In this document: piece by piece, positions 58,895-64,000 of the stretch
Position numbering within the stretch: the first letter of the stretch is position 1
Layout: every line of letters starts with the position of its first letter
Origin: Bacteroidaceae bacterium
Lineage (GTDB): Bacteria; Bacteroidota; Bacteroidia; Bacteroidales; Bacteroidaceae
NCBI GenBank assembly: GCA_017522785.1
Contig: JAFWYF010000035.1
Location: 1-64,000 of the forward strand
Length of the DNA stretch: 64,000 bases
Direction of reading: 5' to 3'
The notes under the pieces: model-generated
Database searches by the model: none
What the model saw: the letters and a program-made list of their open reading frames with translations, nothing else
Told to the model about the DNA's origin: nothing
Program-made: the position numbers and the translations under genes

Positions 58895-58944
58895 ACAAAC
58901 AGTCAGTGGGGTTGAACTTTGGTTCAGCCCCACTGACTGTTTGT
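58895..58944 (+). terminator. Hairpin terminator after the transglutaminase-like gene
   Basis: A 23-bp stem with one G-U pair (58895-58917 with 58922-58944) and a 4-nt loop starts 34 nt after the stop. A moderately T-rich tail follows. It would also stop transcripts entering from the right. Confidence 0.75.
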
Positions 58945-59001
58945 ATGCTTGTATCTTATTGCCTCTACGATTCGACTACAATACGTATATAGTGATGCAA
59001 A

Positions 59002-59188
59002 ACTCTTATAGAGAGACGAACAAATATTATAACTGTTTAAATATCAAGTAGAAAAGACTTGCTCAAAGAGTGTATTAACTAAACAAATCCTATTTTTTAT
59101 ACAGAGTAAATATTTTTAAGCAACTTTAAATTAATTTACGAATAATTTTATACATTTGTGAAAAATCGTTTCGTCTCTCTATAAGAGT
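59002..59188. repeat. 19-bp perfect inverted repeats enclosing 149 bp (invertible-promoter architecture)
   Basis: ACTCTTATAGAGAGACGAA at 59002-59020 recurs as its exact inverse complement at 59170-59188. The 149 bp between hold no gene but carry a perfect -7 box close to the right repeat pointing outward, and a weaker one (AATATTTG on the minus strand, 59028-59021) abutting the left repeat pointing outward left. This matches the plan of Bacteroidetes invertible promoters. No duplicated target site was seen outside the repeats, so an insertion element is less likely. No recombinase gene is in the window. Confidence 0.6.
59151..59158 (+). promoter_or_regulatory. -7 box facing the accessory operon
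   Basis: TACATTTG is a perfect TAnnTTTG. No TTTG is seen at the canonical distance; TTTA at 59125-59128 is 22 nt upstream. Transcription would start near 59165, cross the right inverted repeat and reach the sigma-like gene after about 90 nt. In the orientation given, this promoter is aligned with the operon. Confidence 0.5.
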
Positions 59189-59254
59189 CGAAAGAAAATT
59201 GATATTTAACTTTATCAAAATAAATTTTGCAAAGGCTATAGTAATAAAAAGGCT

Positions 59255-60073
59255 ATGATTGATTTAACGAAAAAAGATTTGAATTATTTGAAGAATCTTC
59301 AATCAGTTGAAGGTGATTTAGAAATTGCAAGAAGGGTTGTTTGTAATGATAAAATAGCGATACACTATTTTTTAGGAAGTTTTTCTATTCCATTTTTAAA
59401 TTATATAGGTAGAGAAATAATGAAATTAGAAGGGTGTTATGTAAATGGTATATTATGCTATTATCCTGATATAAGCGCCGATTATTATACGTTTATAGGT
59501 GCTGAATTTATAAAGCCAATAGATAAGTTTGTATATAAATATTTTGAAAAAAGTTATGTGAATTTATCTATGAATAATTCTACCGAAGATGAGTATATTC
59601 CAACATGGTATAAGGTTGCGTTATATAAAGGAGTGAAAAATAAAGGAGTTAAAGAAGCGCGCCTTTATACCTATATAAATACAATAACTGTAAGACATTT
59701 TATTAATCTTAAAAAGAAATTGGATAAAAAAAATGAAAAAAATATAGATGATATGCTAGAATCTGAGAGTGTTTCTATTCTAATAGATCACAATGGATTT
59801 GATGAACTTATATTATCAGAAGAAAATCCCAAATATGAAGAACTTAGGGAGGCTTGGGATTCACTTAAAGAAAGAGATAGGTTGATATTAAAATATTTAG
59901 TAATAGAGAACCGAAAGCCACTAGAAATTTTTGATGAAATGATTCAATATGTAAGGACAAATATTCCAATAGAGCAATACACTAGAAAACAAAAACAAGA
60001 TGTAATCTCATTAATGAAGAGTCAAGCAAAAAGACATTTACGCGAACTTATTTTAAGAAGAAGAGTAAAATAG
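59255..60073 (+). CDS. Sigma-70-family-like (ECF-type) protein
   Basis: 272 residues, unusually AT-rich DNA. Weak but consistent resemblance to ECF sigma factors: DKIAIHYFLGSFSIPFLNYIG (split by one residue) as region 2.1-like helix, ARLYTYINTITVRHFINLKK as region 2.4-like helix, and a C-terminal region 4-like helix-turn-helix, LKERDRLILKYLVIENRKP through ISLMKSQAKRHLRELI (about 195-268). It is longer than typical ECF factors (about 180-200 residues), with a long insertion between the two helices of region 2. The anti-sigma-like gene starts 1 nt after its stop. I infer a dedicated regulator of this operon. Confidence 0.6.
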   Translation: MIDLTKKDLNYLKNLQSVEGDLEIARRVVCNDKIAIHYFLGSFSIPFLNYIGREIMKLEGCYVNGILCYYPDISADYYTFIGAEFIKPIDKFVYKYFEKSYVNLSMNNSTEDEYIPTWYKVALYKGVKNKGVKEARLYTYINTITVRHFINLKKKLDKKNEKNIDDMLESESVSILIDHNGFDELILSEENPKYEELREAWDSLKERDRLILKYLVIENRKPLEIFDEMIQYVRTNIPIEQYTRKQKQDVISLMKSQAKRHLRELILRRRVK

Positions 60074-60074
60074 T

Positions 60075-60356
60075 ATGAAACATTTGATTAGAGATTTAGA
60101 ACTTATTGCATATTTAGAAGGAGAACTAAATAAAGAAGAAATAAGGATATTGAAAAGAAAATTAGAGGAGAATGGAGAACTTAATATGCTATATCATTTA
60201 CAATTGTCTTACGATGAGGGTTTGGAAGAGTATGCTAATGAGTTAATTGGGGAAGATGATTTTAATACAGAGTCTGTTAAAACAATAGCAATCAATCATA
60301 ATTTTGATAGTGAGTATATAATAGCGGCAAATAAAAAAAATCCGAAAAAAGAATAA
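60075..60356 (+). CDS. Short anti-sigma-like protein
   Basis: 93 charged residues starting MKHLIRDLELIAYLEGELNK, a pattern like the N-terminal helices of anti-sigma factors (LIAYLEGEL... EEIRILKRKLEENGEL). There is no zinc-binding HxxxCxxC, no transmembrane helix and no periplasmic domain, so any anti-sigma function would be cytosolic. Its 3' half was duplicated in tandem downstream. The call rests on position directly after a sigma-like gene and on the helical pattern only. Confidence 0.45.
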   Translation: MKHLIRDLELIAYLEGELNKEEIRILKRKLEENGELNMLYHLQLSYDEGLEEYANELIGEDDFNTESVKTIAINHNFDSEYIIAANKKNPKKE

Positions 60357-60735: not shown

Positions 60736-61902
60736 ATGAATGCACAATTTTCAATTTCAAAAAAACATTTAGAAGATGTTGTAAATCTTGTTAATGACAA
60801 CAAAGTATTTGTAGAGGCAATTTTAAATGAGAAAGATTCGGAAATTTCAATAGATGCTCTCTGTCAAGAACAACTTATGAGTAAATTTACTGTTCCTCAA
60901 ATTGAAGCAGAAGAAATCGTAAATGGATTAAAGAATGGTTGTTCAAAGTTTTATTTTCAGTTTAATAAAAATAAAGAGGCAGAAAACATTCATATAAAAG
61001 AGTGTCTTAAAGAGGTTACAAAGGACTATACAGATGAAGAGCGTAAAGAGATTTATTTAAAAACACTTCGTGAGATCTTGCGCACAAATGGTTCTAACGA
61101 AGAGGTAATCAATACACTCTCAAATTTATCAGCAGAAGAATTACTTGATGAAATAGAAAAAAACATATCAGAAACAATAGATAAGTCATTGTCGTTAGGT
61201 GAATTAGCCAAGTCTGTTAAGGATGAATTGACTTCGGAGATTCTTTCTTCTCTTGCTAAAGAAATCGAAAACAAGAAAAATGAGTATAGTTTAGTTGTTG
61301 CTTTATTACTTTATATTAATCAGCGTGAAGGTAAATTAAACTTATTGTCGAATGATTCTAATTTCCCGCTTTCTACAGAAGAACTTGGAATGTTGGCAGC
61401 CGCATCGATTGAGACTATTATAGTCAATAAAGATTTGCAAGAAAATAAAATTAATATGACAAAGTGGCAAGAGATAATGAAATGGATCCTTGCTGCATTA
61501 ATAGGACTTGCACTACTCGCCTTAGCATGTACAGTAACAGGCTTTGTGGGATTTGGTATATATAGTGTTGTTTTAGCTATCTTTGGTACATGTACAACCA
61601 CAATCTTGATAGGAATGTTTGCTGGTTATTATGTTGCTTCAAAGGTTTCTTCAGATGTTGCAGAAAGTGTTTACAGTATTTTTGAGATGTTTCTTGATTT
61701 TTACGATGCCCATATTATTCCTCTTATAAACAAAATTGGTGTATATTATAAAAAAATGAAGGAATGGGCTAGTGAGCATATTGTTGATAATGTTGAAAAT
61801 ATGGTTACAAAGCAAACTATTGAAAGTTCAGAGCAAATACAAACAGTAACAGTAGACACAGATGAAGACTGTGATGTTGAAACTGCAAAAGTAATGGCAT
61901 AA
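60736..61902 (+). CDS. Unknown protein with two central transmembrane helices
   Basis: 388 residues I do not recognise. Residues 1-245 are acidic and helical without a signal peptide, probably cytosolic, with possible coiled coil around 95-185 (LREILRTNGSNEEVINTLSN region). Two hydrophobic helices follow at about 250-268 and 272-300 (ILAALIGLALLALACTVTGF, then GIYSVVLAIFGTCTTTILIG), and a 90-residue tail with aromatic start and a DTDEDCD acidic end. Both ends would face the cytosol. It is the largest complete protein of the island. Confidence 0.75.
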   Translation: MNAQFSISKKHLEDVVNLVNDNKVFVEAILNEKDSEISIDALCQEQLMSKFTVPQIEAEEIVNGLKNGCSKFYFQFNKNKEAENIHIKECLKEVTKDYTDEERKEIYLKTLREILRTNGSNEEVINTLSNLSAEELLDEIEKNISETIDKSLSLGELAKSVKDELTSEILSSLAKEIENKKNEYSLVVALLLYINQREGKLNLLSNDSNFPLSTEELGMLAAASIETIIVNKDLQENKINMTKWQEIMKWILAALIGLALLALACTVTGFVGFGIYSVVLAIFGTCTTTILIGMFAGYYVASKVSSDVAESVYSIFEMFLDFYDAHIIPLINKIGVYYKKMKEWASEHIVDNVENMVTKQTIESSEQIQTVTVDTDEDCDVETAKVMA

Positions 61903-61971: not shown

Positions 61972-62658
61972 ATGGAACCAATTACTATGACTATTGCCGG
62001 TGTGGCTATCGTTGTTTCTGCATCGGTAGCTTGGGGAATAAATAAATATCAGGCTATAAAGCGAAAAAATGAAGAGATTTTAATTGCGGCAATATCTCTA
62101 CATGTGGAGAAGGAGGCTCTGCAAAAATCATTAAGTACGTATGCAGAAACTTATTCGTTGGAAGAACCTGATTCGGAGTTGATAGAACGCTTTAAAAATA
62201 AAATAAAAGATATATTTAGGGGTAATATTGAAAATGAATTCTTAAAAAGGGAAACAGTTGAAGAAAAAAGACTATTTGCACAACAAGTTATATATGAGTT
62301 AATAAATAGCATAGGTGTAAAGGTTGATAATATTGAATTTGTGCATGAAGAGTTGAAAGGGGCTTTCGGTGAAACAGGAAGTTCTAACGGGATTGTTACA
62401 GTACGTTTGGATGAAGTACTTCTCGTAGATGATCCTATACAACTTATAAAAACTGCGTGTCATGAATTAAAACACTGTGTTCAAATCCAAACAATAACAA
62501 ATAATGTTTGGGGATATTCTCCACAAAGGGTCGCTGAATATTTATATAGTTGGCAAAATTATGTTTCGCCAACTTCTTTGGAGTGTATAGAAGCATATGA
62601 AAAACAAATAATTGAAATAGATGCCAATAAATTTGTAGATGCAGTCTTTGATTTATAA
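61972..62658 (+). CDS. Membrane-anchored putative zinc metallopeptidase (HELKH)
   Basis: 228 residues. One hydrophobic N-terminal helix (about 5-23, MTIAGVAIVVSASVAWG) followed by basic residues suggests a cytosolic body. The C-terminal half has a strand GIVTVRLDEVLLVDD, then LIKTACHELKHCVQIQ, an HExxH zinc motif (His164, Glu165, His168), and 47 residues later EIDANKFVDAVF, with Glu215 as probable third ligand. HExxH plus ExDAxxF is the gluzincin pattern seen in ImmA/IrrE-like and related proteases. The substrate is unknown; the neighbouring anti-sigma-like and two-TM proteins are candidates, as inference. Confidence 0.6.
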   Translation: MEPITMTIAGVAIVVSASVAWGINKYQAIKRKNEEILIAAISLHVEKEALQKSLSTYAETYSLEEPDSELIERFKNKIKDIFRGNIENEFLKRETVEEKRLFAQQVIYELINSIGVKVDNIEFVHEELKGAFGETGSSNGIVTVRLDEVLLVDDPIQLIKTACHELKHCVQIQTITNNVWGYSPQRVAEYLYSWQNYVSPTSLECIEAYEKQIIEIDANKFVDAVFDL

Positions 62659-62673
62659 AATAGAAAATTATTT

Positions 62674-63150
62674 ATGAAAATAAAAGATTTATTAGAACCG
62701 ATAGGTTCTTTGAAAGGTAAAATATATACAGCGTACCGTATATTTAATTGTAATCCTAAAATAAAAAGTGCAATTAAAGAGTGGAAAATTAATAAAGATT
62801 TACCAACGGTGTATATAAATGTAAGAACTTCAGAGAATAGTTCTTTTGAAATATCATCATATGATTTGGTCGATCTATATGGTTTTAATGAACTAGCAGC
62901 ACTATTAATGCTTGATGAACTGGAAAAGGTTCAAGAAAGAAATGATAAAGAGAGATTGGAAATTCTGATATCTTTCTTATTGTACGGCAGGCATAGAACA
63001 CGACTTTTGATACCTCAATCTGTATTTGAAGATATAAAAAATAATCAGCCAGATGTTTGGAAAGAATATCAAAAAATATGTGATGCAGAGGCAACCAAAT
63101 ATCACGATTTAGAAAAAATGTATCCTCGGATTGTAGAAACTGATTTGTAA
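62674..63150 (+). CDS. Unknown 158-residue protein of the accessory operon
   Basis: Soluble, mixed alpha/beta, not recognised. The middle part (DLYGFNELAALLMLDELEKV, then ERLEILISFLLYGRHRTRLL) looks like a helical bundle. No signal peptide, membrane helix or catalytic motif is visible. It lies 15 nt after the zincin and 4 nt before the ATPase-like gene, so it is co-transcribed with both and may be an adaptor. Confidence 0.65.
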   Translation: MKIKDLLEPIGSLKGKIYTAYRIFNCNPKIKSAIKEWKINKDLPTVYINVRTSENSSFEISSYDLVDLYGFNELAALLMLDELEKVQERNDKERLEILISFLLYGRHRTRLLIPQSVFEDIKNNQPDVWKEYQKICDAEATKYHDLEKMYPRIVETDL

Positions 63151-63154
63151 TGTC

Positions 63155-64000
63155 ATGATTGCTGTAAAATATTTAAATAGTAGATTAGGTAAAACTATCG
63201 AACAGATAAAAAAAGCATATTTAAGTAATAAAAATATCTGTTTTTTGGTTTGTAATGAACCGGAGTTTATAAAGGATATTATAAGTTCAACAAGTTTATT
63301 CCCGAATTTAAAACCAGAAGCAGATAATGTTCAGAGGATATCTAATATCTCCTTCACAAATCCTTTTAATTATCAGGATTTTAAAAGTTTACCAGTAGAT
63401 AGACCGTATTTATATGTGTGCGATTGTTTATCAATAAAAGAAGATAAAGACTTACAAAATAAAATAAATGAATTGGAGAAATATGTTAGTTTCATAACCG
63501 ATTTATCGACATGTCATATTTCATTAAATGAAGAGAAAAATAAAAAAATAGAATATATAAAACGTTCTCTAATTTTGTTTCTTGTTGATTCAAAACCTAA
63601 AATACCATCATATATGGAGCATTATGCTGAGACTATAGTTGTTCCATTTATGAATGAATTAGAGTTTAAGGAGTATGTCTCTTTATTTCTAAAAAATGTA
63701 GAAAATGTAAAGACGATTATTGCTGACAATGGCTATGAGGTTGTAACTAACGATGATTATCTCACGCGGTTATATAGAAATATGCTATGCTTAAATGCAA
63801 CTCAGATAAGAAGTATTCTAATAAAGAACAAGATGTTACTTGGTAACATATATTACGAAAAAGAGCAAAACAGATATGAAGAACGAATAGGTGTATTACT
63901 TAAAAACATAAAGCAAGAATTTGAAAAATTATTAGATCAATCAAGGGCACTTACATTGGAAGAAACTTCATCTGAAACTCCTGCCGGACTGGAAAATATA
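63155..64000 (+). CDS. AAA+ ATPase-like protein, N-terminal 282 residues (cut by window end)
   Basis: Open from ATG 63155 to the window edge with no stop. The visible part matches the N-terminal region of a family of bacterial AAA+ ATPases: an opening IEQIKKAYLSNKNICFLVCN like their first strand and helix, ILFLVDSKPKIPSYMEHYAE then IVVPFMNELEFKEYVSLFL like the ASCE-type strand followed by a lid-like segment, and LLDQSRALTLEETSSETPAG-LENI, which resembles the linker just before the GGLxxLK entry to the ATPase core. The Walker A should lie just past position 64000 and is not seen. Role unknown; it belongs to the same operon as the zincin. Confidence 0.55.
   Translation, partial: MIAVKYLNSRLGKTIEQIKKAYLSNKNICFLVCNEPEFIKDIISSTSLFPNLKPEADNVQRISNISFTNPFNYQDFKSLPVDRPYLYVCDCLSIKEDKDLQNKINELEKYVSFITDLSTCHISLNEEKNKKIEYIKRSLILFLVDSKPKIPSYMEHYAETIVVPFMNELEFKEYVSLFLKNVENVKTIIADNGYEVVTNDDYLTRLYRNMLCLNATQIRSILIKNKMLLGNIYYEKEQNRYEERIGVLLKNIKQEFEKLLDQSRALTLEETSSETPAGLENI

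Follow-up and report, generated by a model that had tools for sequence, protein, structure and literature searches.

Probable invertible promoter switch in front of a sigma factor-like gene on an island at cutC of a Bacteroidaceae bacterium

The window that was analysed in this study, i.e. the whole stretch of 64,000 nucleotides, belongs to contig C35, which has a length of 96.9 kb, in the 2.1-Mb draft genome of a Bacteroidaceae bacterium. Towards its right end, an operon is inserted at the 3' end of cutC. The operon is carried by an island of approximately 11 kb, and the ends of the island are marked by two copies of the 15-bp direct repeat TTGCCTCTACGATTC. The left, attL-like copy is located at the left end of the island on the plus strand (58959-58973), and the right copy lies in the 3' end of cutC outside the window (contig position 69931-69945, L003:5931-5945). 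The cutC gene was found at the cut-off in 37 of the 44 genomes of the genus, and 30 loci were fetched, of which 29 derive from other genomes. In 21 of these 29 loci, a transglutaminase gene is located 84 to 1018 bp from cutC and the operon is absent. Another short coding sequence seems to be present in some of the wider gaps. In the window's genome, the distance between the two genes is about 11 kb. Thus, the locus has the two hallmarks of an integrative island: both of its ends are marked by direct repeats, and the site is empty in these relatives. No recombinase of the families PF00589 or PF00239 was detected on the contig of the island.

The first operon gene (59255-60073, plus strand) encodes a protein of 272 aa, which appears to be a divergent sigma-70/ECF-like factor according to a weak profile match, an alignment and a structural model. 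Taken alone, the protein matches TIGR02937 only with an E value of 0.0068, and 13 of the 20 members of its alignment match this profile. The AlphaFold model of the protein has a mean pLDDT of 75 and a pTM of 0.51. A comparison of the model with the PDB gave no match below 0.001, and nearly all of the 50 matches listed are sigma factors or initiation complexes. The next gene (60075-60356) encodes a protein of 93 aa without a family match, which we assume from its position and look may be an anti-sigma factor. It is followed on the same strand by genes for a 388-aa protein that looks like a membrane protein (60736-61902), a 228-aa putative metalloprotease with the HExxH motif HELKH (61972-62658), both without a family above the cut-off, and a 158-aa protein recognised by its reading frame and without an assigned family (62674-63150). 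The window ends with the start (63155-64000, plus strand) of a gene for an AAA+ (CDC48-like) ATPase of 661 aa (PF00004, 2.6e-24). Beyond the window, the operon extends to contig position ~69919 and encodes proteins of 320, 257, 601, 141 and 246 aa. The 601-aa protein has the look of an Hsp70/actin-type ATPase by motif only and no Pfam match. When nine operon proteins were compared with defence-system models, the AAA+ domain matched IetA models, and two other proteins gave matches at E 0.003-0.01 only. A distant relative of the Hsp70/actin-like protein is encoded together with HerA-like and HExxH proteins in another genome (G392, L098 4645-15899), some kilobases from a gene for an Mpi-like serine recombinase.

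Just inside the left end of the island and upstream of the first operon gene lies an element of 187 bp (59002-59188). An earlier note on this DNA had described it as exact 19-bp inverted repeats with a spacing of 149 bp, a perfect -7 box inside the right repeat facing the operon and a weaker outward box abutting the left repeat. All of these features could be confirmed. The arms ACTCTTATAGAGAGACGAA match exactly over 19 bp in inverted orientation. The left arm (59002-59020, plus strand), a putative recombination site, contains the 15-bp core ACTCTTATAGAGAGA at 59002-59016, and in the right arm (59170-59188, minus strand) the core is located at 59174-59188. Between them lies a non-coding segment of 149 bp (59021-59169), which is predicted to be invertible. 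In Bacteroidetes, the consensus of the -7 box is TAnnTTTG. The perfect -7 box TACATTTG (59151-59158, plus strand) is located 11 bp inside the right arm and faces the operon; the -33 element of this promoter is weak. The outward box AATATTTG (59021-59028, minus strand) has one mismatch. Thus, the locus shows two characteristics of an inverton, i.e. short inverted repeats around an intergenic segment and, in the form of a predicted -7 box, a promoter in this segment that faces the regulated gene in one orientation.

The earlier note had also judged the repeat to be far beyond chance, and this is the case. Inverted repeats of at least 15 bp with spacers of 30-300 bp did not occur in 30 first-order resamples of the 64-kb window. 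When 81 further loci, some of which overlap, were examined (319,124 bases in total), two inverted repeats of at least 15 bp with spacers of 100-450 bp were found, one of which is itself a switch of the same class (L065, see below). The proposed search for the repeat elsewhere in the genome gave a negative answer: no further copy with up to three mismatches is present in the window or in the 2.1-Mb draft genome. Among the 61 genomes searched, the repeat occurs with two mismatches in G001 and G008. These matches were rejected as further switch arms because they are single copies that apparently lie inside coding sequence. The contig of the window's genome (G000) runs uninterrupted through the element and only a single orientation is seen, which speaks against a switch.

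To the left of the element lies a long hairpin with 22 of 23 pairs (58895-58944). This hairpin had been regarded as a terminator of leftward transcripts. The hairpin as such is present, but a terminator scan did not identify an intrinsic terminator at this position and the canonical form is therefore not borne out. In 17 of the 21 island-free relatives, the convergent transglutaminase gene and cutC have a hairpin of at least 12 pairs between them. Thus, the hairpin probably belongs to the old junction of these two genes, as its bidirectional terminator, and not to the switch.

A search for relatives of the first operon gene in one genome per species led to the identification of two loci, L057, which is identical with G010 and has the same repeat pair, and L056. 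In an order sample of 393 genomes, homologs of the first protein at E 1e-12 were present in the window's genome only, and no match was obtained in plasmids, phages or viral contigs. The closest relative, the G010 gene, is 70% identical. Directly upstream of this gene lies a perfect 20-bp repeat pair with a spacing of 264 bp, whose sequence is unrelated to that of the window's repeat, and a -7 box with one mismatch is located 10 bp inside the gene-side arm. The G010 contig ends inside the second operon gene. In L056, the operon is present through the Hsp70-like gene and there is no repeat at the corresponding place, which counts against the switch reading. Two of the three relatives (window and G010, not L056) therefore carry a switch, and the two repeat sequences are unrelated. 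The leader directly after the G010 arm resembles the L056 leader. Apart from this shared leader, no clear similarity was seen in either orientation when the inner segments were compared between the window, G010 and L056; one comparison of the G010 and L056 inner segments gave a shuffle P of 0.04. Among the 30 sigma-like loci of the genus that were examined, a perfect upstream pair of at least 12 bp occurs only in the window and in G010. The 28 distant sigma-like paralogs lack such a pair wholly upstream (L038 comes without upstream sequence). Pairs at other positions occur in L019, where they lie downstream of the gene, and in L037, where one arm of a 14-bp pair is inside the gene; the other paralogs have none.

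The repeat of G010 led to a family of recombinases. With one mismatch, its only match elsewhere in the 44 genomes is located in G006 after a tyrosine recombinase gene, and the match starts with the stop codon of this gene, which encodes 397 aa. The G006 contig ends exactly at the inner edge of the repeat, and we infer that it does so because a population of mixed orientation breaks the assembly at this point. In G005, the contig of the closest relative also ends shortly after the stop codon, at a distance of 4 bases, but not at the inner edge. A match with two mismatches is also present in G022, and the backward control pattern was matched twice with up to two mismatches.

Using the G006 recombinase as a query, relatives were found in 25 of the 44 genomes at E 1e-45, and 30 loci were examined. 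Four of them end no more than 20 bp after the match; 26 loci, some of them in part, could be tested for downstream sites. Ten of the 30 loci contain a repeat pair with the core TCTCT-N5-AGAGA directly after the recombinase gene. The remaining 16 of the 26 loci with downstream sequence lack this switch, which counts against the switch reading, and four of them (L115, L126, L132 and L136) have pairs of other sequence. It also counts against this reading that G010 carries the other site class while no member of the recombinase family was detected at E 1e-45 in its assembly, which is 86% complete. In G033 (L122 1184-1511), a recombinase gene is cut short at a place where the other site class TTCCACGAAAGAA occurs three times; this is possibly a rearranged locus.

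The cargo behind the distal arm of the ten linked switches is variable. It consists of a methyltransferase-like gene in L111 (G011; 164 bp from core to core), DUF445 in L114 (174 bp), a DrmD-type (DISARM-type) helicase in L116 (G019; 1.2e-97; 176 bp), a sigma-like gene in L118 (G032; Sigma70_r4_2 at 1.5e-5, just under the cut-off; 174 bp), a gene for a TonB_C protein in L120, whose operon also encodes a fimbrillin-like protein (172 bp), a gene for a HerA-like protein in L123 (whole gene in L139; 419 bp), a gene for a secreted-looking protein in L131 (152 bp) and a methyltransferase-like gene in L134, followed by a second gene matching Eco57I at 1.6e-17 (G066; 176 bp). The loci L117 (209 bp) and L125 (194 bp) run off the contig behind the distal arm. 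L116 and L134 are near copies. The core-to-core distance is 152-209 bp in nine of the ten linked switches and 164-176 bp in six. A perfect -7 box is located 6-14 bp inside one arm in nine of the ten, and L123 has only a box with one mismatch. If L065 and the window are included, 11 of 12 switches have a perfect box 5-15 bp inside an arm, where 0.32 would be expected. In the ten linked switches, the box points toward the recombinase in six cases and toward the cargo in three. Both orientations are thus seen only among family members of other genomes and not at the locus of the window. For L114 and L125, an alignment of the inner segments was obtained only when one of them was reversed (2 of 3000 shuffles). 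This alignment is moderate evidence for inversion because it is one of 55 pairs that were tried in two orientations. Extra repeat copies near an arm were observed in L117 and L125.

Some further observations concern the cargo. The operon of L118 (L140:359-13406, G032) is led by the sigma-like gene and also encodes an AAA+ ATPase, a protein with a caspase domain and two GTPases that resemble dynamins. In L116, L111 and L134, the promoter box faces away from the DrmD or methyltransferase cargo as assembled. The HerA-like protein of L123 (first 341 aa) does not match the HerA-like protein of L098. A switch of the same class without an adjoining recombinase gene was found in G006 (L065 837-1023, contig C27) in front of a gene for a secreted-looking protein of 750 aa. 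L065 sits between the same two host genes as the island of the window, has a core-to-core distance of 164 bp and shares the box TACATTTG with the window, likewise at 11 bp from the arm on the gene side. Thus, linkage to a recombinase gene is not universal for these switches.

In its layout, the element of the window agrees with this class: the core-to-core distance is 172 bp and the box is located at 11 bp. Moreover, the repeat starts at the outer edge of the core and runs 4 bases past its inner edge to give 19 bp, as in L116 and L117. With a score matrix built from nine other linked loci, the window arms rank 4th-5th of 96,900 contig positions with a score of 11.5. When the nine members were left out in turn, they scored 16.6-22.7. 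A score as high as that of the window core is reached by 25 of the 96,895 19-mers in this contig, a count that includes the placements of the core itself, and mononucleotide-shuffled contigs contain 2.8 hits per contig at this score. Since the window core scores below every left-out member, the element may be regarded as a divergent member of the TCTCT-N5-AGAGA class at best. A recombinase gene directly beside the window's switch was not found, and the search for a linked tyrosine or serine recombinase that the earlier note had proposed thus failed on the switch contig; a member of the recombinase family is encoded on another contig, C17.

The genome of the window encodes five PF00589 proteins. 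One of them exceeds the cut-off of the XerD model, and an XerC-like protein scores best on the XerC model, under its cut-off. Two further proteins are presumably integrases of mobile elements. The C17 recombinase (176740-177930) is the only member of the switch-associated family at E 1e-45. In a tree of 34 rows, it falls into a group of ten rows that contains seven of the ten switch-bearing recombinases. The support of this group (85/94) is modest and the group was drawn open; the switch-bearing rows as a whole require two changes on the tree. The gene directly downstream of the C17 recombinase gene (L052:5138-6460) shows 37% identity over 234 aa to the last gene of the island (L003:5179-5916), which looks like a shorter copy. 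No switch site was found beside the C17 recombinase gene, which counts against its involvement. Therefore, the best reading of the comparisons is that the C17 enzyme would act in trans, as is the case for Tsr19/BF2766 (see below). On balance, we favour the C17 recombinase as the enzyme that flips the window's switch.

The Mpi-type serine invertase of the capsule loci flips promoters in trans at distant sites. The window's switch would resemble the Mpi switches in that a distant promoter is flipped in trans. However, the best dyads of the arms have a centre of odd length (the dyad score is not significant in three of four arms), and an odd-length centre suits a tyrosine recombinase better than the two-base overlap of serine recombinases. 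The only PF00239 protein of the genome, a serine recombinase of Mpi-like make, was compared with its whole frame of 221 aa and reaches 75.1 bits (E 5.9e-21) on the Mpi model, far below the cut-off of 272. Its presence counts against the C17 reading, and a serine enzyme may flip the switch instead. The earlier suggestion that the switch would need a different recombinase from that of the capsule loci fits the presence of the family's tyrosine recombinase on C17. The earlier note did not foresee that the operon lies on an island at cutC or that the recombinase gene is unlinked.

Among the systems that have been described, the tyrosine recombinase Tsr19/BF2766 of Bacteroides fragilis is comparable. 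It is reported to act on the local promoter IVp-I and the distant promoter IVp-II (PMC4747536). Both there and in the loci described here, a tyrosine recombinase flips, or would flip, short promoter segments between inverted repeats, of which one is located just 3' of the recombinase gene and another at a distant site, and extra repeat copies occur near an arm, here in L117 and L125. In contrast to Tsr19/BF2766, the recombinase gene in the genome of the window has no recognisable local switch next to it, and the cargo of the window is a sigma-like-led island and not polysaccharide or vesicle genes; the likeness is one of layout. Invertons of Bacteroidota have also been sorted according to their repeat motifs, and the resulting groups were connected with groups of invertases encoded nearby (PMC11892184). 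The pairing of invertase groups and repeat motifs by proximity and the Bacteroides-type promoters agree with our loci. Furthermore, integrative conjugative elements of Bacteroidales carry invertible promoters in front of genes for antibiotic resistance (PMC8748976). They have in common with our loci an invertible promoter on an accessory element and variable cargo behind an invertase. In contrast to these elements, the cargo differs and the island of the window carries no invertase. A literature search of partial coverage yielded no relevant paper on the TCTCT-N5-AGAGA motif. A second one on phase-variable defence in Bacteroidales, also of partial coverage, revealed nothing on TCTCT-N5-AGAGA switches in titles and the start of abstracts.

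Taken together, the region 59002-59188 is likely to be a phase-variable promoter switch that operates by site-specific inversion and would be flipped in trans by the C17 enzyme. That the segment 59021-59169 inverts at all is very likely. The earlier interpretation as an invertible promoter is strongly supported by the comparison with other genomes, i.e. by the repeat and box of G010 and by recombinase-linked switches that face either way. A switch by descent that no longer inverts, for instance because the island arrived without its recombinase and the host enzyme misses the diverged site, is unlikely. The fit of the window arms to the family core is poorer than that of each of the nine members, there is no PF00589 or PF00239 recombinase on the switch contig and the assembly has one orientation only, all of which would be expected of such a relic. 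However, the two arms have kept their identity over all 19 bp, the genome encodes a recombinase of the right family, and with L065 another unlinked switch of the class occurs.

It is very improbable that the repeat belongs to the integration machinery of the island, e.g. as integrase or excision sites near attL, and is not a promoter switch. The left arm does start 28 bp inside the 15-bp direct repeat at the left end of the island, but nothing similar is present at the right end, as only two copies exist in the genome, and by eye the direct repeat is unlike the arms. Furthermore, the related switches adjoin recombinase genes and precede cargo of unrelated kinds, and most of them have the -7 box at the same place. 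We give hardly any credence to the idea that the two arms are binding sites of a regulator or form an RNA or DNA structure in the leader. A dyad near a promoter would suit such a function, and together with its flank the right arm is partly palindromic (shuffle P 0.024; the other three arms are not significant). However, the operons of the window and of G010 share their layout while their repeats are unrelated and differ in spacing (149 vs 264 bp), the window arms resemble sites beside recombinase genes and the element has no match in Rfam.

For the phase-variable promoter switch, the following mechanism can be proposed. A tyrosine recombinase, most likely the C17 member of the family, would recombine the two arms and thereby flip the 149-bp segment between them. 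In the orientation that was assembled, the -7 box points toward the operon, which would be the ON state. After inversion, transcription from the box would run leftward in the direction of the old hairpin, which would leave the operon OFF or expressed at a low level. Since the first gene is sigma factor-like, a flip would toggle the whole acquired island and perhaps also the genes that the sigma factor itself controls.

In Bacteroidales, the best-known invertible promoters are those of capsule and surface protein genes. The switch of the window is a known kind of element with uncommon cargo and a plausible unlinked enzyme, and the same switch family also precedes defence-like and sigma-led multi-gene systems. 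As a promoter switch in front of defence-like systems, it would allow that only some cells of a clonal population pay the cost. According to a recent report, recombinases are often encoded beside anti-phage genes, and their role in phage defence is unknown (PMC12529663). The loci described here offer a testable answer, namely that such recombinases flip the promoter of the neighbouring system. We tentatively suggest, as one joint proposal that is somewhat less than an even bet, that the recombinase family and the TCTCT-N5-AGAGA switch form a portable phase-variation cassette in front of exchangeable cargo, which includes the AAA+/HExxH/Hsp70-like island, the dynamin/AAA+/caspase operon of G032, a DISARM-type helicase, methyltransferases and fimbriae, and that the operons of the window and of G010 acquired two unrelated classes of switches independently. 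Two related operons under unrelated switches are a natural test of selection for on/off expression. If the proposal is true, the independent switch classes would mean that bistable expression is selected for in a system that is as yet undescribed and possibly directed against phages.
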